Shown: piece after piece, positions 34,565-64,000 of the stretch
Layout: each line of letters starts with the position of its first letter
How positions within the stretch are numbered: the first letter of the stretch is position 1
NCBI RefSeq assembly: GCF_017161445.1
Contig: NZ_CP071060.1
Span: 4,761,993 to 4,825,992, forward strand
Direction: 5' to 3'
Source: Niveibacterium microcysteis
GTDB taxonomy: Bacteria; Pseudomonadota; Gammaproteobacteria; Burkholderiales; Rhodocyclaceae
Length of the DNA: 64,000 bases
Made by a program: the position numbers and the translations under genes
Notes under the pieces: generated by a model
What the model saw: only the letters and a program-made list of their open reading frames with translations
The model's database searches: none
What the model was told of the DNA's origin: nothing

Positions 34565-34620
34565 CTTAAGCCGGGCTTAACTCAGCCTAATCAGGTCTTA
34601 AGCCGGCGGTTTGCAGAATG
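34565..34620 (+). promoter_or_regulatory. PmrA/QseB-type box and promoter of the distal Asr-like gene
   Basis: CTTAAG (34565-34570), five bases, CTTAAC (34576-34581) form the tandem hexamer pair known for PmrA/BasR and QseB regulators. A further CTTAAG lies at 34597-34602. Fifteen bases after the start of that last half-site comes TGCAGAAT, a likely extended minus-10. The same arrangement with the same distance recurs at 48932-48986, next to a QseB/PmrA-like regulator. Confidence 0.75.
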
Positions 34621-34675
34621 CAGTCGTGCACTCGATGACGAGTCGCCGAACCAAGCCAACAACCGGAGAATGACC

Positions 34676-34966
34676 ATGAAGAAGCTGATCCTTGCAGTGT
34701 CCGCCCTGACCTTCGCTGCCGGCGTGTTTGCTGCCGATGCGGCGCCCGCCGCGAAGACCGCGCCGACTGCAACACCGGTGGTGAAGACCGCCGAACCGGC
34801 GAAGACGACGAAGACCGAAGCAGCCGCGCCCGCCAAGCAAAGTGAAGCGACCGCCGCGACCACCCCGGCCAAGACGACCGCGCCGACGAAGAAGGCCAAG
34901 ACGCACAAGGTGAAGGCCACCAAGGCACCTGCAACGCCGGCCAGCACCGACACGCCGAAGAAGTAG
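34676..34966 (+). CDS. Asr-like exported Ala/Thr/Lys-rich protein
   Basis: The 96-residue precursor begins with signal peptide MKKLILAVSALTFAAGVFAAD, nearly the same as those of two other genes in the window. The mature part is a low-complexity, basic, disordered-looking chain of Ala, Thr, Lys and Pro (for example APTKKAKTHKVKATKAP). Composition and layout resemble the periplasmic acid-shock protein Asr of enterics, which shields against acid; that role here is inference. Spacing from GGAG favours this ATG over one two codons earlier. A PmrA-type box precedes it and a strong terminator follows. Confidence 0.75.
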   Translation: MKKLILAVSALTFAAGVFAADAAPAAKTAPTATPVVKTAEPAKTTKTEAAAPAKQSEATAATTPAKTTAPTKKAKTHKVKATKAPATPASTDTPKK

Positions 34967-34987
34967 TCACCTGAACAAGCTGCCAGG

Positions 34988-35026
34988 ACGAGCCGGACTC
35001 AATAGCGAGTCCGGCTCGTTTCTATT
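34988..35026 (+). terminator. Rho-independent terminator after the Asr-like gene
   Basis: A perfect 13-bp stem (ACGAGCCGGACTC with GAGTCCGGCTCGT) closes over a six-base loop and is followed by TTCTATTT. It ends the monocistronic Asr-like unit and insulates mntH. Confidence 0.85.
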
Positions 35027-35132: not shown

Positions 35133-36401
35133 ATGACCCAGCTGATTCTTGCCATATCGGGCAGCCGCCAAGCGAACTTGCCGCCCGCGACGCTGCGCCG
35201 CATGGTCGGCCCCGGGCTGATGGTCGCGGTTGGCTACATGGATCCGGGCAATTGGGCGACCGACATCGCCGGCGGTGCGGGCTTCGGCTATCGGCTACTC
35301 GCCGTCGTGGTATTCGCCAGCGTGCTCGCGATGGGCTTTCAGGTGCTCGTGGCGCGGCTTGCGCTGGCCACCGGTGAAGACCTTGCAAGCCTCACACGCC
35401 GGCATTTGCCCACGCCACTCGCCAAAGTGGCCTGGCTTGCCGGAGAAGCCGCGATTCTCGCAACCGCGCTGGCGGAACTGGTGGGTGGCGGCATCGCACT
35501 CAAGCTGTTGCTGGGCTTGCCCTTGCCGCTGGGGGTGGTGCTCACCGCGATCGGCACGATCAGCGTGCTGGCGGTGTCACGCCTGCGCAGTGGCGCACAT
35601 GAGCAGCTCGTCAGCGCGCTGGTGGCCGTCGTCGCGCTGGCCTTCCTGCTGCTGCTGGTGGAGATCGGGCCGGACTGGGGCGCGGCGGCGCAGGGTGTGG
35701 CGCAGACCGGTACTGCATTGGCCGACCCCAAGGGTCTGATGATCGCGCTCGGCATCGTCGGGGCGACGCTGATGCCGCACAACCTCTACCTCCACGGCAG
35801 CGAGATCGCGCGCCGTGCGCAGGGCCTCGACGACGCAGCGCGAATCGACGCACTGCGCGTGACACGCAACGACACGCTGGTTTCGCTGACGCTGGCCATG
35901 GCGATCAACGGCGCCATCATGATCGTGGCGGCCGCGTCGTTCGCCGGCGGTGCCAACGTCAGCAGCCTCGATGGGGCCTACAGCGCGATGCGCGACCAGC
36001 TCGGCCCGCTCGCTGCGATCGCCTTCGGCGTGGCGCTCTACGCGGCGGGGCAGAGTTCGGCGATCACCGGTGTGATGGCGGGCAGCGCGCTGACGCGGGG
36101 CTTCCGCGGCGACGCCGGCTCTGAGCGCCTTCGCGGCATCATGACGCGCCTGGCAGCCGTGAGCATCGCACTCGCCTTCATGGCCCGGCGCGGCGTGGGC
36201 GACCCCGACGGCCTCCTGGTGCTGAGCCAGGTCGTACTCGGGCTTGCCCTGCCCTTCGCGCTGGTGCCGCTCACCTGGCTGGCGTGCCGCGGCACGCTGA
36301 TGGGGCGCTTGGCGCTCAGCGGCTTCGCGAAGGCAGCCCTGATCGCGGCGACCACGCTGATCGTGCTGCTCGACCTCAACCTCGTTGCCGCCTGCTTCTG
36401 A
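35133..36401 (+). CDS. mntH: NRAMP-type Mn(II)/Fe(II) transporter
   Basis: The 422-residue protein has about eleven membrane helices and the two signature motifs of NRAMP carriers: MDPGNWATD in helix one, where Asp and Asn bind the metal, and LMPHNLYLHG in helix six. It imports Mn(II), perhaps Fe(II), with protons. CGGAG about eight bases before the ATG supports the start over a longer frame. No MntR-type palindrome was found upstream. It is followed at 86 bp by the GH5 gene. Confidence 0.92.
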   Translation: MTQLILAISGSRQANLPPATLRRMVGPGLMVAVGYMDPGNWATDIAGGAGFGYRLLAVVVFASVLAMGFQVLVARLALATGEDLASLTRRHLPTPLAKVAWLAGEAAILATALAELVGGGIALKLLLGLPLPLGVVLTAIGTISVLAVSRLRSGAHEQLVSALVAVVALAFLLLLVEIGPDWGAAAQGVAQTGTALADPKGLMIALGIVGATLMPHNLYLHGSEIARRAQGLDDAARIDALRVTRNDTLVSLTLAMAINGAIMIVAAASFAGGANVSSLDGAYSAMRDQLGPLAAIAFGVALYAAGQSSAITGVMAGSALTRGFRGDAGSERLRGIMTRLAAVSIALAFMARRGVGDPDGLLVLSQVVLGLALPFALVPLTWLACRGTLMGRLALSGFAKAALIAATTLIVLLDLNLVAACF

Positions 36402-47023: not shown

Positions 47024-47944
47024 ATGAGCACCCTGGCCAGCGTGGTGCTGGCGCTGGCGCTCGACGCACTGCTTGGCGAGCCGCGGCGCTGGCATCCGCT
47101 GGTCGGCTTCGGCCGGCTGGCGCAGGCACTTGAAGCGCGCTGCAACCGGCACGGCAATCGCCTTGGGCGCGTGACCGGTCTGCTCTGCTGGGCCGCGCTG
47201 GTGCTGCCGCCGGTGGCGCTGTGCGCGCTGGCCCTGCCTGCCCCGGCCGATACGCTTTTCGGCGCGCTGGTGCTGTACTTCGCGCTCGGCGCACGCAGCC
47301 TCGCCGAGCACGCCCGCGCCGTCGCCGAACCTTTGCTGCGCGGCGAGCTGCCGGCAGCGCGGCAGGCCTTGTCGATGATCGTCAGCCGCGACACCACCGC
47401 GCTCAGCGAATCCGGTGTCGCCGCCGCGACCTGCGAATCGGTGCTCGAGAACGGCAACGACGCGGTTTTCGGTGCGCTGTTCTGGTTCGTCGTCGCGGGG
47501 GCGCCGGGGGCGCTGCTGTTCCGCCTGGCCAACACGCTGGATGCGATGTGGGGCTACCGCACGCCGCGCCTGCTGCACTTTGGCTGGGCCGCGGCGCGGC
47601 TGGACGACCTGCTCAACCTGATCCCGGCGCGGCTCACCGCGCTGAGCTATGCGCTCGCCGGAAGCTGCGCGAACGCACTGCATTGCTGGCACACCCAGGC
47701 GGCCCGACACGACAGCCCGAACGCCGGGCCGGTCATGGCAGCTGGCGCCGGTGCATTGGGGCTGGCGCTCGGCGGCCCGGCGGTGTATCACGGAAAGCTG
47801 GAGCAACGCCCGACGCTGGGCCGTGGCCGCGATGCCACGCCGGCTGACATCGACGCGGCGTTGCGCCTGACGCGCCGCGCGCTGCTGCTGTGGCTCGCGG
47901 CAATCACACTGGGAGGCCTCATTGCGACCCGCATCGGCACCTGA
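47024..47944 (+). CDS. cobD: adenosylcobinamide-phosphate synthase (CobD/CbiB)
   Basis: The 306-residue membrane protein fits the CobD/CbiB family: LDALLGEPRRWHPLVGFGRLA at the start, SMIVSRDTTALSESGVAAATCESVLEN in the middle (shown only by its pattern here) and LANTLDAMWGYRT. It attaches aminopropanol phosphate to adenosylcobyric acid. Together with the next gene it makes the nucleotide-loop linker of B12. The 3' end overlaps the next start by 23 bases. The rest of the corrin pathway is not in the window, so it may serve salvage of imported corrinoids. Confidence 0.93.
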   Translation: MSTLASVVLALALDALLGEPRRWHPLVGFGRLAQALEARCNRHGNRLGRVTGLLCWAALVLPPVALCALALPAPADTLFGALVLYFALGARSLAEHARAVAEPLLRGELPAARQALSMIVSRDTTALSESGVAAATCESVLENGNDAVFGALFWFVVAGAPGALLFRLANTLDAMWGYRTPRLLHFGWAAARLDDLLNLIPARLTALSYALAGSCANALHCWHTQAARHDSPNAGPVMAAGAGALGLALGGPAVYHGKLEQRPTLGRGRDATPADIDAALRLTRRALLLWLAAITLGGLIATRIGT

Positions 47945-48947
47945 GCTGGCGAGCCCGCACGGCGGACGCTTGCGCGAAGCCTCGCGCCGCTATGGCATTG
48001 CGCTCGACCAATGGCTGGACCTATCGACCGGCGTGAATCCGGTCGCCTGGCCGGTGCCGCCGCTGCCGTTGAGCTGCTGGCAGCGCCTACCGGAAGAGGA
48101 CGATGGGCTCGAAATCGCAGCCGCGCAGTACTACGGCAGCGAGATGCTGCTGCCGGTGGCGGGCTCGCAGGCCGCCTTGCAGGCGCTGCCCTGGCTGCGG
48201 CCGCACGGTGCCGTCGGCGTGGTCGGGCCGAGTTACGCGGAGCACGCCGCTGCTTGGCTGCGCGCCGGGCACCATGTTGAGGACGTCGAGCCGGGCACGA
48301 TCGACAGCCTGCTGCCGGCGCTCGACGCACTGGTGCTGGTCAATCCGAACAACCCCACCGGTGAGCGCTACCCGATCGGCCAGCTGCTTGCCTGGCACCG
48401 CCAGCTGGCAGCGCGCGGCGGCTGGCTGGTGGTCGATGAAGCTTTCATCGACGCCACGCCGGCGGAAAGCCTGGTCACCCATGCCGGCATGCGCGGGCTG
48501 ATTGTGCTGCGCTCGCTGGGCAAGTTCTTCGGGCTGGCGGGCGCCCGTGTCGGCTTTGTCTTCGCCGACGCGGCCCTGCGCGGCCGGCTGGCACATCTGC
48601 TGGGCCCCTGGGCCGTCAGCGGGCCGGCGCGGGCTGTGGCAATGCTCGCGCTGGGCGACCACACATGGCAGGCAACCCAACGCCAGCGCTTGCCGCAACA
48701 GGCCGAAGCGCTGCGCGCCCTGCTCGCGCGCCACGGCCTGCCGCCCACCGGCTGCAATGCGCTGTTCCAGTGGGTACGCACCGAGCATGCGGCGGAAATC
48801 GCCCACACGCTGGCACATCAGGGTGTGCTGGTGCGGCGCTTCGACTACCCGGAAAGCCTGCGCTTCGGCCTGCCGCCCGATGCCGCCGGCCTCGCCCGGC
48901 TCGATCTCGCGCTCGGCCGCGCGGTGGCAGTCTTAAGTCTCGCTTAA
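47922..48947 (+). CDS. cobC: threonine-phosphate decarboxylase (CobC-type aminotransferase fold)
   Basis: The 341-residue PLP enzyme fits the CobC group, called CobD in Salmonella: PHGGRLREASRRYGI at the start, LDLSTGVNPVAWPVP, VLVNPNNPTGERYP and the PLP lysine region VLRSLGKFFGLAGARVGF. It makes aminopropanol phosphate, the substrate of the upstream enzyme. A TTG start inside cobD is used since no better one exists. The stop codon TAA lies inside the CTTAAG box of the next promoter. Confidence 0.88.
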   Translation: MRPASAPELASPHGGRLREASRRYGIALDQWLDLSTGVNPVAWPVPPLPLSCWQRLPEEDDGLEIAAAQYYGSEMLLPVAGSQAALQALPWLRPHGAVGVVGPSYAEHAAAWLRAGHHVEDVEPGTIDSLLPALDALVLVNPNNPTGERYPIGQLLAWHRQLAARGGWLVVDEAFIDATPAESLVTHAGMRGLIVLRSLGKFFGLAGARVGFVFADAALRGRLAHLLGPWAVSGPARAVAMLALGDHTWQATQRQRLPQQAEALRALLARHGLPPTGCNALFQWVRTEHAAEIAHTLAHQGVLVRRFDYPESLRFGLPPDAAGLARLDLALGRAVAVLSLA

Positions 48948-48986
48948 GTCGGCTTCAGTCGGTGTTAAGTCTCGCGCCTGCAAGAT
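48932..48986 (+). promoter_or_regulatory. PmrA/QseB-type box and promoter of the Asr-like gene pair
   Basis: CTTAAG (48932-48937), TCTCG, CTTAAG (48943-48948) is a perfect tandem PmrA-type box. Two further half-sites follow, CTTCAG (48953) and GTTAAG (48964), giving periods of 11, 10 and 11. TGCAAGAT at 48979 lies 15 bases after the start of the last half-site, as at 34597-34612. The box overlaps the end of cobC. Confidence 0.82.
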
Positions 48987-49034
48987 GCAAGCGCGTTGAA
49001 CACCAACGAACCCAACCGATCAGGAGTGATGACC

Positions 49035-49229
49035 ATGAAGAAGCTGCTTGCTGCCTTGTTTGCGATGACCTTTGCTGCCGGTGTGTTCGCCGCCGACGCC
49101 GCACCTGCGCCGGCCGAGAAGCCGGCTGCTGAAGCCGCCAAGCCGGCCAAGGCGACGAAGAAGAAGACCAGTCACAAGAAGACTGAGAAGCCCGCCGCCG
49201 AAAAGACCGAAGCGGCCCCGGCCAAGTAA
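49035..49229 (+). CDS. Asr-like exported Lys/Ala/Pro-rich protein, copy 1 of tandem
   Basis: The 64-residue precursor has signal peptide MKKLLAALFAMTFAAGVFAAD and a mature tail of about 43 residues made mostly of Ala, Lys, Pro, Glu and Thr (AKATKKKTSHKKTEKP). It should be disordered and basic, resembling enteric acid-shock protein Asr. AGGAG eight bases upstream supports the ATG. The next gene is a close paralogue, and a QseB/PmrA-like system follows. Confidence 0.75.
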   Translation: MKKLLAALFAMTFAAGVFAADAAPAPAEKPAAEAAKPAKATKKKTSHKKTEKPAAEKTEAAPAK

Positions 49230-49250
49230 TCGGATCAACAGACCAGCACC

Positions 49251-49280
49251 CGGCTCGCGCTGGACGAGCTCCGCGAGCCG
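49251..49280 (+). other. intercistronic hairpin between the Asr-like genes
   Basis: CGGCTCGCG and CGCGAGCCG form a perfect 9-bp stem with a 12-base loop between the two Asr-like genes. No T-run follows, so it is more likely an RNA-stabilising or attenuating structure than a terminator. Confidence 0.5.
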
Positions 49281-49322
49281 CGGAAAACCCCTTGAATTGA
49301 AACGGAAATCGGAACCATGAAC

Positions 49323-49529
49323 ATGAAGAAGCTGTTGGCTGCCCTGTTTGCGATGAGCTTTGCCGCGGGTGTATTCGCCGCTGACGCTGCCCCGGCCCCG
49401 GCGGAAAAGCCGGCCGCCGAAGCAAGCAAACCCGCCGCCCCGGCAAAGAAGAAGAGCACCAAGAAAAAGACCAAAGCTGCCCCGACGACCACCGACGAAG
49501 CCAGCAAGGCTGCGCCGGCCAAGCAGTAA
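49323..49529 (+). CDS. Asr-like exported Lys/Ala/Pro-rich protein, copy 2 of tandem
   Basis: The 68-residue precursor starts MKKLLAALFAMSFAAGVFAAD, one residue different from its neighbour over this stretch. The tail is again disordered and basic (AKKKSTKKKTKAAP). An ATG two codons earlier exists, but the GGAA spacing and the paralogues favour this one. No CTTAAG box stands between the copies, so both should be read from the upstream promoter and stopped by the terminator that follows. Confidence 0.75.
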   Translation: MKKLLAALFAMSFAAGVFAADAAPAPAEKPAAEASKPAAPAKKKSTKKKTKAAPTTTDEASKAAPAKQ

Positions 49530-49565
49530 CCCATCCGGCCGCCCTAGCGGCGGAGGGGGAGAGTT

Positions 49566-49599
49566 GGGCTCCGGCAACTTGCCGGAGCCCGTTTTTTTT
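49566..49599 (+). terminator. Rho-independent terminator after the Asr-like pair
   Basis: GGGCTCCGG pairs with CCGGAGCCC over a seven-base loop and is followed by eight T residues after one G. It separates the Asr-like unit from the regulator gene, whose start is about 50 bases on. Confidence 0.92.
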
Positions 49600-49651
49600 G
49601 GCGGCGCCTGAACGATAATCGCCGCCACGAAAACCGGAAGGGACGAGCTGG

Positions 49652-50308
49652 ATGCGCGTGTTGCTGGTGGAAGATGATCCGATGGTCGGCGATGCAAGCC
49701 GGCTGGGTTTGCTTGCAGCTGGATTCACCGTCGACTGGGTGCGCGACGGGCGCGCCGCCGAGTTGGCGATCGAAGCCAACGAATACAGCGCCGCGGTGCT
49801 GGATCTGGGGCTGCCGAAGATCGATGGCATGTCGCTGCTGTCGCATCTGCGCCAGCAGGACAACCGGCTACCGGTGATCGTGGTCACGGCGCGCGACGCG
49901 GTGTCGGACCGCGTTGCCGGCCTCAACGCCGGCGCCGACGATTACCTGACCAAACCCTTCGACCTGGACGAACTGGTCGCCCGCCTGCGCGCGCTGATTC
50001 GGCGAAACAGCGGCCGCACGCAGCGCGTGATCACCTGCGGCGCGATCGCGTTCGACACCGAGGCACGCACCGTCAAGCTCGATGGCGAACCGGTCACGTT
50101 GTCGGCACGCGAGCTGTCGCTGCTCGAAATCCTGCTCGAAAAGCCGGGCGCGGTGCTATCGCGCGAGAAGCTGGAGGAAAAGCTCTTCGGCTGGGGCGAG
50201 GAACCCTCCTCCAATGCCCTTGAAGTGCATCTGCACAACCTGCGTCGCAAGCTTGGCGCCGATCGCATCCGCAATGTGCGCGGCGTGGGCTACAAGGTGG
50301 TCGCGTGA
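49652..50308 (+). CDS. QseB/PmrA-like response regulator
   Basis: The 218-residue protein has an OmpR-type layout with pocket LLVEDDPM, phospho-acceptor D51 in AVLDLGLPKIDG, Lys in YLTKPFDLDE and a winged helix with LSARELSLLEILLEKPG, SNALEVHLHNLRRKLG and IRNVRGVGYKVV. The recognition-helix region SSNALEVHLHNLRRKLG is typical of the PmrA/QseB/BasR group, whose known site CTTAAG-N5-CTTAAG stands upstream of the adjacent Asr-like pair and of a third paralogue. The stop overlaps the kinase start by four bases (GTGA). Confidence 0.92.
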   Translation: MRVLLVEDDPMVGDASRLGLLAAGFTVDWVRDGRAAELAIEANEYSAAVLDLGLPKIDGMSLLSHLRQQDNRLPVIVVTARDAVSDRVAGLNAGADDYLTKPFDLDELVARLRALIRRNSGRTQRVITCGAIAFDTEARTVKLDGEPVTLSARELSLLEILLEKPGAVLSREKLEEKLFGWGEEPSSNALEVHLHNLRRKLGADRIRNVRGVGYKVVA

Positions 50309-51609
50309 GCGCTCCGCGCTCGATCCGTGCCACGGTGCTCGGCTGGCAGCTGGGCGCGATGCTGCTGCTCGGATGCGTCGCGGTGCTGGCCGCCTATACG
50401 CTGGCGGTGCGTTCGTTCGAGACGCTGCGTAACCTGGAGCTCGCACAGATCGCCGACGCAGTCGCGCGCCACGGCGTGGAACCCGACACCGACGACGACG
50501 AGCAACCGGGCGACTTCCTCAGCCAGGTCTGGAACGCCAACGGGCGGCTGGCCTACGCGAGCCACGACCCGGCGTTGCCGAAGCCGAAGAAGCTGGGCGA
50601 ATTCGATTTCCTGTACGACGACCGTTCCTGGCACGGGTTCGCGCGCACTTACGGCGGTCAGACCATCCTTGTCGCGCGTGAGGCGGGCGCGCGACGCGAA
50701 CTGTTCATGCGGATCTCGCTGCCGATGCTGACGGTGCTGGCCGGGCTCGCGACCCTGCTCACGGTATTGCTCGGGATACGCGTCAATCGCGCGCTGGCAC
50801 CGCTATCCTCGCTGCGCGCCGCCTTGTCGGCGCGTGACCCGAGTTCGCTGACGCCGGTGCCGGTGGACGATGCGCCGCGCGAACTCGTGCCGCTGGTCGG
50901 CACGCTGAATGGGCTGCTTGGACGCGTGGAAGGGCTGCTCGAGGGCCAACGCCGCTTCATCGCCGATGCGGCACATGAACTGCGTACGCCGGTCACCGCG
51001 ATCCGCCTGTATGCGCAACTGGCGCAGCGCGCCGACACCGCAGCGGACCGCGATAGTGCGATCGCGAACATCGAAGCGAGCTGCCTGCGCGCGGCCCACC
51101 TCGTCGAACAACTGCTCGCGCTGGCGCGACTGGACCCGGACAACGGCCCCGGGCGCGCCCCGGTAGCCCTTGAATTGATCGCCCGCGAGGGCGTGATTGC
51201 GCAATCCCCGCTTGCCGAGGCGCGCGGCATCGACCTTGGCCTTGGCGATTGCGATGCGGTGTCGGTCGAGGGCAGCGACGCCGAATTGCGCATGCTGCTC
51301 AACAACCTGATCGACAACGCGGTGCGCTACACCCCGGCCGGCGGGCAGGTGGACGTATCGGTGCACAGGACCGCAACCGGCGCGGTGGAACTGCGTGTGG
51401 AAGACAGCGGGCCAGGCATTCCCGAAGACGCACACCAGCGCGTGTTCGAGCGCTTCTTCCGACTCGCTGGCGCCGAACAGCCGGGCACCGGGCTCGGGCT
51501 CGCCATCGTGAAAAGCATTGCCGAGCGACATGCGGCAACCGTGGTGCTGGAAAACCGCGCAGAAGGCGGGCTGCGCGTGCGCGTCTGCTGGCCAGCCGCC
51601 CCCGCCTAG
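50305..51609 (+). CDS. QseC/PmrB-like membrane histidine kinase
   Basis: The 434-residue kinase has two membrane helices (GAMLLLGCVAVLAAYTLA and PMLTVLAGLATLLTVLLG) around a periplasmic domain of about 110 residues with an acidic patch (PDTDDDEQPGD) that might sense cations or protons, by analogy with PmrB and PhoQ. Phospho-histidine motif is IADAAHELRTPVTAIRL; ATPase boxes are NLIDNAVRYT, DSGPGIPE and GTGLGLAIV. It is the partner of the regulator upstream. A GTG start in the four-base overlap shows coupling. Confidence 0.92.
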   Translation: MSAPRSIRATVLGWQLGAMLLLGCVAVLAAYTLAVRSFETLRNLELAQIADAVARHGVEPDTDDDEQPGDFLSQVWNANGRLAYASHDPALPKPKKLGEFDFLYDDRSWHGFARTYGGQTILVAREAGARRELFMRISLPMLTVLAGLATLLTVLLGIRVNRALAPLSSLRAALSARDPSSLTPVPVDDAPRELVPLVGTLNGLLGRVEGLLEGQRRFIADAAHELRTPVTAIRLYAQLAQRADTAADRDSAIANIEASCLRAAHLVEQLLALARLDPDNGPGRAPVALELIAREGVIAQSPLAEARGIDLGLGDCDAVSVEGSDAELRMLLNNLIDNAVRYTPAGGQVDVSVHRTATGAVELRVEDSGPGIPEDAHQRVFERFFRLAGAEQPGTGLGLAIVKSIAERHAATVVLENRAEGGLRVRVCWPAAPA

Positions 51610-53654: not shown

Positions 53655-54500
53655 TCAACCGATCCGGCCAAGGATGCCATCGAGCTGGTCGAGGCTGCCA
53701 AACTCGATCACCAGCTTGCCGGCGCCCTTTTTGTTGGCCGCGATCTTCACCGTGGCGCCGAGTTTGTCCGCTAGGTCTTCCTCAAGCCGGGCGACGTCGC
53801 GATTGACGACCTTCGGCAGCTTTTCGGCTTCCGGCTTCAGCGCGTTCTGCACCGCCTTCTCGGTTTCGCGCACCGACAGGCGGCGTGCGACGACCTGATT
53901 CGCAAGCAGGATCTGCTGAGCCGGATCCAGCGCCAGCAGTGCGCGCGCATGGCCCATTTCAATATCGCCCAGCATCAGCAGCTCGCGCACCGGTTCCGGC
54001 AGCGCCAGCAGCCGCAGCAGGTTCGACGTCGCCGGACGCGAACGCCCGACGGCATCGGCCGCCTGCTGGTGCGTCATGCCGAATTCGTCGATCAGGCGCT
54101 GGATGCCCTGCGCTTCTTCAAGCGGGTTGAGGTTCTCGCGCTGGATGTTCTCTATCAGCGACATCGCCAGCGCGGCTTCGTCCGGGATCTCGCGGATCAG
54201 CACCGGCACTTCGGCCAGCTCGGCAATCCGCGCGGCACGCCAGCGGCGTTCGCCAGCGATGATCTCGTGGCGGCCACCACCGATCGGGCGCACCAGGATC
54301 GGCGACATCACGCCCTGCGCGCGGATCGACGCAGCGAGTTCTTCCAGGCTGCCGGCATCCATGCGGGTGCGTGGCTGGTATTTGCCCGGCTGCAGCTCGT
54401 CGATCGCCAGCGTGTCGAGGCGGCCCTTGTTGTCGGCCGAAGTGTCGGCGCCGAGCAAGGCTTCCAGCCCGCGGCCGAGGCCCTTGGGTTTCTTGACCAT
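53655..54500 (-). CDS. parB: chromosome partitioning protein ParB
   Basis: The 281-residue protein binds parS and spreads along DNA as a CTP-dependent clamp. Visible are the N-terminal ParA-interacting start (KKPKGLGRGLEALLG), the CTP motif region GERRWRAARIAEL, ENIQRENLNPLEEAQG and the helix-turn-helix MTHQQAADAVGRSRPATSNL. The two parS sites at 58777 and 59580 are its likely targets. It follows parA with one GNAT gene between them, which is unusual. Confidence 0.95.
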   Translation of the reverse strand: MVKKPKGLGRGLEALLGADTSADNKGRLDTLAIDELQPGKYQPRTRMDAGSLEELAASIRAQGVMSPILVRPIGGGRHEIIAGERRWRAARIAELAEVPVLIREIPDEAALAMSLIENIQRENLNPLEEAQGIQRLIDEFGMTHQQAADAVGRSRPATSNLLRLLALPEPVRELLMLGDIEMGHARALLALDPAQQILLANQVVARRLSVRETEKAVQNALKPEAEKLPKVVNRDVARLEEDLADKLGATVKIAANKKGAGKLVIEFGSLDQLDGILGRIG

Positions 54501-54580
54501 GTTTCTGATTCCTGGTGTGCAAATTCAAGGGCGTCGCCGCGCAGAGTGCAGCAGCGCCCGGTGTTCGGTGTTGCGGCCGG

Positions 54581-55378
54581 CTATTCGATCTCGCGCGCCC
54601 GATACCAGTACGCGTAGCAATCGGAAAAGCCGAGTCGTTGATACAGGGCACGCGCCACGGCGTTGCCGGCGCCCACCTGAAGGCATGCATACCGCGCGCC
54701 GGCGTTTTGCGCCCGCTGGAGCAGCATTTCGATGAGCGTGGCGGCATACCCCCTGCCGCGCATCTCAGCCTGCGTATGCACGCCATAGAGGCCCGCCATG
54801 CTGCCATCGAGAAGCACGCAGCCTGCCGCAACCGGCGCGTCCCGTTCACCCATCAGCAAACGAATGCCGGTGCCCGCAAACGATACAGCGCGTTCAACAT
54901 CCACCGCGATGCGCTCCGGTGCGTCACCGTAGAGGCGCCCGGCCTTGTCGGCAAATTCGCGCGGCCCGACTTCATGCAGGGGCAAGGCGCTTGCCGGGGC
55001 TGTGCCAACCTCGAGCGTACGGTACATGACGCGGGATTCCTCAAAGGCCACGAAGCCCCGTTCGGCGAGCGCGGCGTCTAGCCCCTGTGGCTGCGAAAAC
55101 GGCGTGATGCGGAAGGTCAGCGGCAAACCCGCAGCCGCCAGCAGGGCAGCAGCGCGTTCGATGCGTTCGTCAATCGGCATGCGGCCGTCGCCGATCGCGT
55201 TCACGCAGCGTGCCCGTTTTGCCCGGCTGTTGGCGAAACGCACCAGCCAACCGTCGACCAGTGCCTGCTCGCGCACATGGGTGGCATTGAGCCCGGCATC
55301 TTCAGCCTGGGCGGCGAGCGCATCACGCGCATCGCGCAGCGCCTCGGGAACCGAGCGCGGATCGAATGCGGCAGCCAT
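54581..55378 (-). CDS. GNAT acetyltransferase between parA and parB
   Basis: The 265-residue protein ends in a GNAT domain (VAAGCVLLDGSMAGLYGVHT, RGRGYAATLIEMLLQRA, YQRLGFSDCYAYWYR) with the acetyl-CoA loop pattern RGRGYA. The N-terminal half is a less clear, second GNAT-like fold. Substrate unknown. It lies 8 bp after the parA stop and about 80 bp before parB, so it is likely read with them, but a direct role in segregation is only a possibility. Confidence 0.85.
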   Translation of the reverse strand: MAAAFDPRSVPEALRDARDALAAQAEDAGLNATHVREQALVDGWLVRFANSRAKRARCVNAIGDGRMPIDERIERAAALLAAAGLPLTFRITPFSQPQGLDAALAERGFVAFEESRVMYRTLEVGTAPASALPLHEVGPREFADKAGRLYGDAPERIAVDVERAVSFAGTGIRLLMGERDAPVAAGCVLLDGSMAGLYGVHTQAEMRGRGYAATLIEMLLQRAQNAGARYACLQVGAGNAVARALYQRLGFSDCYAYWYRAREIE

Positions 55379-55385
55379 CGTCGGA

Positions 55386-56156
55386 CTAGATCGATTTGAT
55401 CCGTTCGATCATTTCCGCGGCAAATGCGAGGTAGGCCTGCGAGCCCTTGGCGGCCTTGTCGAACACCACGCCCGGCAAGCCATGGCTGGGCGCTTCGGCG
55501 AGCCGCACATTGCGCGGGATCACGGCCTTGAAGACCTTGTCACCAAAGTGGGATTCGAGCTGTGCCGAAACCTGCTGCGACAAGGTGCTGCGCGGGTCGA
55601 ACATCACGCGCAGCAGGCCGATGATCTTCAGGTCACGATTGAGCTTGGCATGGACCTGCTTGATGGTGTTCACGAGGTCCGACAGGCCTTCCAGCGCGTA
55701 GTACTCGCACTGCATCGGGATGATCACGCCGTGCGCCGCGCACAAGCCGTTGAGGGTGAGCATCGACAAGGATGGCGGGCAATCCACCAGCACGAAGTCG
55801 TATTCGTCATCCACCGCGCGCAAAGCGTCGCGCAGGCGGTTCTCGCGGTTGTCGAGGTCGACCATCTCGACTTCAGCGCCCGCGAGGTCGCGGTTGCTCG
55901 GCAGTACGTCGTAGCCGCCGGCCTCGGATTTCGCACGTACTTCCGGCAAGGTCTTCAGACCGACCAGCAGGTGGTAGACCGAAGCAGCCAGACTGCGCTT
56001 GTCGACCCCCGAGCCCATCGTGGCGTTGCCCTGCGGGTCGAGGTCCACCAGCAGCACGCGCTGGCCGTGCGCCGCGAGGGCGGCCGAAAGGTTGACGGTA
56101 GTGGTGGTCTTGCCGACCCCACCCTTCTGGTTGGCGACTGCGAAGATGCGGGCCAT
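55386..56156 (-). CDS. parA: chromosome partitioning ATPase ParA
   Basis: The 256-residue protein starts [20 protein letters not shown] with the deviant Walker A motif (KGGVGKTT) of ParA/MinD ATPases; DPQGNATMGSG and DYVLVDCPPSLS-like segment FVLVDCPPSLS complete the site. It drives movement of ParB-parS complexes. It begins one base from the rsmG stop (overlapping), which matches the common gene order mnmG-rsmG-parA-parB near the origin. Confidence 0.96.
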   Translation of the reverse strand: MARIFAVANQKGGVGKTTTTVNLSAALAAHGQRVLLVDLDPQGNATMGSGVDKRSLAASVYHLLVGLKTLPEVRAKSEAGGYDVLPSNRDLAGAEVEMVDLDNRENRLRDALRAVDDEYDFVLVDCPPSLSMLTLNGLCAAHGVIIPMQCEYYALEGLSDLVNTIKQVHAKLNRDLKIIGLLRVMFDPRSTLSQQVSAQLESHFGDKVFKAVIPRNVRLAEAPSHGLPGVVFDKAAKGSQAYLAFAAEMIERIKSI

Positions 56157-63724: not shown

Positions 63725-64000
63725 GTTCTTGTTTCCTTGCTAACCGGGAAAAACGCGCGATTACACAGCGTAAAGCTCTGTTTGTCAAGCGTTTTTATCT
63801 TTTCCACAGCTCAGCGCCTGTGGATAAATCTGTCGATGAAGCGTAGAATAACTCGCTTTCCATGGCCGTCCGACATGCACCGGGAAGAGCCGGTCGCAAG
63901 CCCCGGACGCGCTTAAAAACCACATAAAAAACAAAGAGTTGATGCCGAACCGCACGACGCTAACCGCGCCGCCGCGGGGTGGGCGCCATTCGCGCAAAAC
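63725..64000. other. origin-proximal region with DnaA boxes, before dnaA
   Basis: TGTGGATAA (63821-63829) is the exact reverse complement of the DnaA box TTATCCACA, and TTTTCCACA (63802-63810) differs by one base. An AT-rich stretch follows at about 63911-63945, unlike the GC-rich surroundings. By the common rpmH/dnaA order, dnaA should start divergently past the right edge. Whether this holds the full oriC or only the dnaA control region cannot be told. Confidence 0.75.
63760..63790 (-). promoter_or_regulatory. rpmH promoter
   Basis: On the minus strand TTGACA (63790-63785) is followed after 19 bases by TGTAAT, or after 17 by the overlapping TGTGTA. The site lies 36 bases before the rpmH start, as expected for a strong ribosomal promoter. 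Confidence 0.65.

Follow-up and report, generated by a model that had tools for sequence, protein, structure and literature searches.

A PmrA/QseB-type regulator gene beside an array of CTTAAG half-sites and genes for small exported basic proteins in Niveibacterium microcysteis

Which genes does a PmrA/QseB-type two-component system control when a perfect copy of the PmrA box lies just upstream of it, in front of two small genes for exported basic proteins? This question is raised by a locus of Niveibacterium microcysteis (Rhodocyclaceae), which we studied within a stretch of 64,000 nucleotides of contig NZ_CP071060.1 (64 kb, hereafter the window). A first-pass annotation of this DNA, made from the letters alone, had proposed here a small envelope-stress unit, perhaps for acid or cations, with disordered Lys-rich proteins as its main output. 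We consider it probable that the locus encodes an envelope-stress system of the PmrA/QseB family, whose main output in the genus would be exported disordered polycations; judged from sequence, the regulator very probably switches on this exported-protein family via a repeated site. Each part is of a known kind; it is their combination, seen in a single genus of the relatives studied, that looks new.

The array and the exported-protein genes

The array occupies positions 48932-48969 on the forward strand and consists of four half-sites, CTTAAG, CTTAAG, CTTCAG and GTTAAG, starting at 48932, 48943, 48953 and 48964, with periods of 11, 10 and 11; the perfect CTTAAG-N5-CTTAAG box and the two additional half-sites in register that had been annotated are thus confirmed. 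The box itself, CTTAAGTCTCGCTTAAG at 48932, matches the PmrA consensus (C/T)TTAA(G/T)-N5-(C/T)TTAA(G/T) as quoted in PMC10729948, and binding is predicted from the sequence. Position 48932 is the sole exact match to CTTAAG-N5-CTTAAG in the window; with up to three mismatches there are nine matches versus a shuffle mean of 4.18, at least nine being reached in 3 of 100 shuffles. As CTTAAG is its own reverse complement, the exact box alone is compatible with a direct as well as an inverted repeat.

Downstream are the two genes for small exported basic proteins that had been recognized from the start. The first (49035-49229, forward strand) encodes a Lys/Ala/Pro-rich protein of 64 amino acids (aa), and the second (49317, or 49323, to 49529, forward strand) is its tandem duplicate of 68-70 aa, without a box of its own. 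The two proteins are 75% identical, and the underlying direct repeat of 155 nucleotides is identical at 78%. The gene order, with the exported-protein genes before those of the regulator and kinase, is as annotated, but they do not follow one another directly, being separated by a strong intrinsic terminator at the boundary between the tandem genes and the regulator gene (49565-49599, forward strand, -28.4 kcal/mol). A hairpin without a U-tract is also present between the tandem genes (49249-49283, -22.2 kcal/mol, z -2.3), by which the transcript could be stabilised or shortened.

The observation extends beyond this pair, as the window contains a third such gene, preceded by the same array (34565-34966). 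This second array, composed of CTTAAG, CTTAAC, CCTAAT and CTTAAG (34565-34602, forward strand), precedes a gene for a 96-aa protein of the same family (34676-34966, forward strand) with a terminator at its 3' side (34986-35021, forward strand). Beyond that terminator lies an Nramp transporter gene (35133-36401, PF01566). No sigma-70 -35/-10 pair was detected in either array promoter; a putative -10-like hexamer, CAAGAT (48981-48986, forward strand), is found 11 bp past the last half-site of the first array, and CAGAAT occupies the equivalent position in the 34 kb promoter. In a protein search of the genome, four such genes were recovered at three loci (E <= 1.9e-5, with nothing further below E = 0.5), and at all three a four-half-site array stands about 100 bp before the gene. 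The presence of arrays before short, terminator-ended genes suggests a dedicated output.

The mature parts of the four proteins, as defined by rule-based signal cleavage, are made up to 88-96% of K, A, P, T, E and S, contain neither aromatic residues nor Cys, have a pI of 9.8-10.1 with a net charge of +4.9 to +8.9 at pH 7, and all fall on the disordered side in a charge-hydropathy plot. They are probably disordered, to judge by this composition. No sequence family of known function reached its cut-off with any of them. Small disordered exported proteins are easily overlooked because of their low-complexity sequence, and a rare, well-defined operator array represents another way to find them.

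Distribution in the genome, the genus and the wider family

Genome-wide, YTTAAG-N5-YTTAAG with at most one mismatch occurs at five places. Leaving out an AT-rich site close to where the contig ends (around window position 63912), four boxes are counted: those at 48932 and 34565, one before the fourth exported-protein gene (L003), and an exact one (L001:1501-1517) between the gene of a second regulator and a DUF1924/diheme-cytochrome operon. Exported-protein genes are therefore the commonest linked target (three of the four boxes), which is consistent with their proposed role as main output, and the array defines a testable regulon of four sites. Exact sites number two in the genome versus none for the control. 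The looser TTAA-N7-TTAA gives 11 sites versus 4 for its control, and the seven beyond the four boxes described have no consistent link by eye. Two of these seven (L080, L082) stand before open reading frames (ORFs) resembling envelope proteins.

Among the seven genomes of the genus, six contain exported-protein genes (16 in total at E <= 0.01), none being found in G001. A box with up to two mismatches is present within 125 bp of 14 of these genes, and the two that lack it are second members of tandem pairs; by comparison, in 4800 dinucleotide shuffles of the 16 promoters, only 1 reached at most one mismatch and 19 at most two. The four-half-site layout is seen in twelve of the 14 boxed promoters, with AGAATG, AAGATG or AAAATG 12 bp further on. 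In all seven genomes, moreover, a box lies upstream of the regulator gene, either across the exported-protein gene that adjoins it (G000, G002, G004, G006, and G005 with two mismatches) or directly before the regulator gene itself (G001 and G003).

Outside the genus, none of six such genes (five from the protein search plus L098) has a box upstream, the best sites showing 4-6 mismatches; a further gene was left out of this check for its internal stops. A hidden Markov model search of 199 genomes of the bacterial family at E <= 1e-6 detected the exported proteins in five genus genomes and in one other (G154), where the gene has no box (6 mismatches at best). When 297 genomes of the family were searched with the array pattern TTAA-N7-TTAA-N17-TTAAG, 12 matches in 5 genomes were obtained. 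Eleven of these precede exported-protein genes of the genus, and the twelfth, in another genus (G246), begins 83 bp upstream of where a DUF1924/diheme/cytochrome b operon starts. What sets the true array matches apart is that they cluster in a single genus and precede two kinds of target.

The kinase has matches at E <= 1e-60 in 29 of 61 genomes, including all seven of the genus. From 26 rows outside the genus, three of them without a locus, 23 kinase loci were read, and in seven of these a box with at most one mismatch lies no more than 60 bp from where the kinase gene ends, none being present there in the other 16. The gene that follows codes for HtrA (trypsin plus PDZ domains) in five cases, for an outer-membrane efflux protein in one, and for a protein with no Pfam match in one. 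In other genera (L054, L055, L056, L057 and L059), the succession of a PmrA/QseB-type pair, a box and an HtrA gene looks like a conserved envelope-stress unit. Exact boxes in the 61 relatives amount to 26 sites in 17 genomes, versus 7 sites in 7 genomes for the control (forward counts). For 11 non-genus loci with exact boxes (of 15 such sites), the contexts are HtrA (three, the same places as among the kinase-end boxes), DUF1924, cytochrome b561, a response regulator and a SurA-like protein scoring below Pfam cut-offs, plus four without a clear link. In N. microcysteis itself, HtrA was considered as a direct target and discarded, as four HtrA-like genes are present and no site with up to two mismatches lies on the gene strand of those loci. 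In G058, a fragment after the kinase (L060) resembles a PMT-family glycosyltransferase (21.1 bits versus a cut-off of 22.7) and is possibly ArnT-like.

Regulator, proposed mechanism and alternatives

The response regulator (49652-50308, forward strand, 218 aa) comprises a receiver and a winged-helix domain (PF00072 and PF00486), and its top NCBIfam models are PmrA (241.1 bits) and QseB (237.4 bits), both scoring under their cut-offs; it belongs to the PmrA/QseB branch of OmpR-family regulators, as had been proposed. The residues reported to read bases in the PmrA-DNA complex, Asn188, Asn196 and Arg210 in PmrA numbering (PMC4660055), are all retained (N, N, R), and Lys153 and Thr187, which are named in PMC3973317, are replaced by Arg and Ser. 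Over 29 aligned regulator rows, positions 188 and 210 are constant and 196 varies (N, H, A, S, T).

The reading frame of the regulator overlaps that of a QseC-like sensor kinase (50305-51609, forward strand, 434 aa). The acidic patch PDTDDDEQPGD, to which the first-pass annotation had drawn attention, is indeed present at kinase residues 60-70. In a predicted model of residues 1-160, which consists of a helix, five strands and a helix (mean predicted local distance difference test score, pLDDT, 78.4), residues 62-67 within the patch form the sole segment with pLDDT < 50, and the loop changes in length and sequence among congeners. Given this variability and its position in the least reliable part of the model, the patch counts as weak evidence that the kinase senses cations, and we rejected a metal-binding reading on these grounds. 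A fold search of the sensor part gave no match at E <= 0.001, with weak PAS/CACHE/PhoQ-like ones only. Further downstream, on the minus strand, ORFs resembling ParB and ParA by eye (53655-56156) hint at a replication origin not far from the window.

In PmrA/PhoB-family promoters, the downstream dimer beside the -10 region takes the place of the -35 element. By analogy, we propose that the phosphorylated regulator would bind half-sites of the CTTAAG type in head-to-tail order, with the four-half-site array probably filled by two dimers; as 11 bp separate the array from a weak -10 element, the downstream dimer would sit next to the -10 region, replacing a -35 element, and RNA polymerase would be recruited as it is by PhoB and PmrA. 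In the genus, the system would mainly give rise to short terminator-ended transcripts for small exported positively charged proteins, and the same box would also mark the DUF1924/diheme-cytochrome operon beside the second regulator of the family. By analogy with the job reported for Asr in E. coli, the exported proteins would most likely serve as polycationic stress proteins, either in the periplasm or at the outer membrane, and acid or cation stress is a reasonable guess for the signal.

Several results weigh against this scheme. At up to one mismatch, the box is not enriched in the genome (9 rows versus 16 for the reversed-pattern control); the bare count therefore proves nothing, and the significance of the boxes rests on their position and array layout. 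The reversed control of the array search likewise gave 24 matches over 19 genomes, exceeding the 12 of the pattern itself. Two of the genus promoters (L014, L021) lack the full array, with just two half-sites each, and the promoters of the genus are partly orthologous or paralogous and thus not independent. Residue 196 is constant neither in the family nor in the genus; G001 has His there, as does the second regulator, so this position does not cleanly separate the two regulators, which are 51% identical and have nearly the same contact residues. Finally, membership of the Asr family fails, with scores of 21.8 and 16.8 bits for the Asr model NF033636 versus a cut-off of 50.

Among the alternatives, the one that survives best, unlikely as we find it, is that the regulator and its box are real and that the exported proteins are unrelated to acid or envelope stress, serving instead, for example, in metal or polyphosphate binding, in biofilm surface charge or as secreted antimicrobials. 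The lack of a match reaching the cut-off of any family with known function would fit with this, as would the several kinds of signal described for E. coli QseB/PmrA systems (PMC10729948); however, further box-linked genes in relatives include those for HtrA, an outer-membrane efflux protein and a SurA-like protein, which all concern the envelope, and the composition of the exported proteins is close to that of Asr. It is rather improbable, in our view, that the array is mainly bound by the second regulator, beside the DUF1924/diheme-cytochrome operon, with the neighbouring system being a bystander or a minor partner. The second regulator is similar to the first, an exact box lies in the divergent promoter region of its own gene, and the only array match outside the genus precedes a DUF1924 operon; yet an exported-protein gene adjoins the first regulator in five of the seven genus genomes, and in G001 and G003 it is the first regulator that has the box upstream. 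Finally, that the repeats arose by chance or as a remnant of the aminotransferase gene's 3' end is hardly credible: the TAA stop of this ORF (47922-48947) does fall inside the second half-site and the reversed control does yield as many genome sites with at most one mismatch, but the same layout with fixed spacing recurs before unlinked paralogues and in congeners, dinucleotide shuffles almost never give the box, and chance is countered by both the promoter shuffles and the array search of the 297 genomes.

An envelope-stress system with exported disordered polycations as its main output in the genus hence remains our preferred reading. A bolder version, which we advance tentatively and to which we give only a small chance, is that the genus has rewired a PmrA/QseB-type system, via a doubled PmrA box, from control of HtrA to the export of multi-copy disordered polycations that shield the anionic envelope. 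If true, this would be an equivalent, made of protein, of the charge modification of lipid A. One regulator family may keep its operator while swapping outputs (HtrA, cytochromes, disordered polycations).

Comparison with known systems

In a partial survey of the literature (titles and abstract openings), we found no description of the pairing of such a regulator and box with an exported disordered protein. The closest known cases each share some parts with the present locus.

The exported proteins recall E. coli Asr, a small exported basic Lys/Ala/Pro-rich protein under the OmpR-family system RstAB (PMC11135836, PMC10746267), in which RstA binds the asr promoter (PMC11135836). However, Asr has many more His residues, and both the regulator branch and the box differ. 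Asr is also characterized by acid induction and by chaperone activity as a disordered protein, and with this the composition and charge of the exported proteins agree. The Asr model was matched at E <= 0.01 by 5 of 15 family members (21.8 bits at best), and BLASTP against E. coli Asr returned nothing meaningful (E = 29). The term 'Asr-like' used by the first-pass annotation is thus apt for composition and layout but not for family membership, and the proteins resemble enterobacterial Asr in kind rather than by demonstrable kinship.

Operons of SHP (DUF1924) and diheme cytochromes with a QseC-like kinase are described in PMC2909971, and the fourth box here has such an operon on one side and the gene of a QseB-type regulator on the other; a box common to exported disordered proteins, in contrast, was not found in the excerpt of that paper.

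With QseBC, the likeness concerns the kinase, for which QseC is the best-scoring model; its match (222.6 bits, residues 119-429 only) stays below the curated 475 bits of the QseC equivalog NF007664. The 2CSK_N domain (PF08521) does not match the window kinase, whereas 13 of 21 aligned homologues match it at E up to 1, aligning over the same part. In addition, the E. coli QseB site is another sequence (PMC10729948).

The resemblance to PmrAB (BasRS) of enterobacteria is seen in the box, which fits the consensus, and in the regulator, which aligns to BasR/PmrA without gaps over 216 residues and keeps Asn188, Asn196 and Arg210, although it scores 241.1 bits with the PmrA equivalog NF007928 versus a curated cut-off of 330. 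Control of EptA, which we considered and rejected, is not part of the system here, as the genome has no PF08019 match in a search that detects the E. coli control (arn genes were not searched). In place of it, the targets here would be exported disordered proteins, preceded by four half-sites rather than two.

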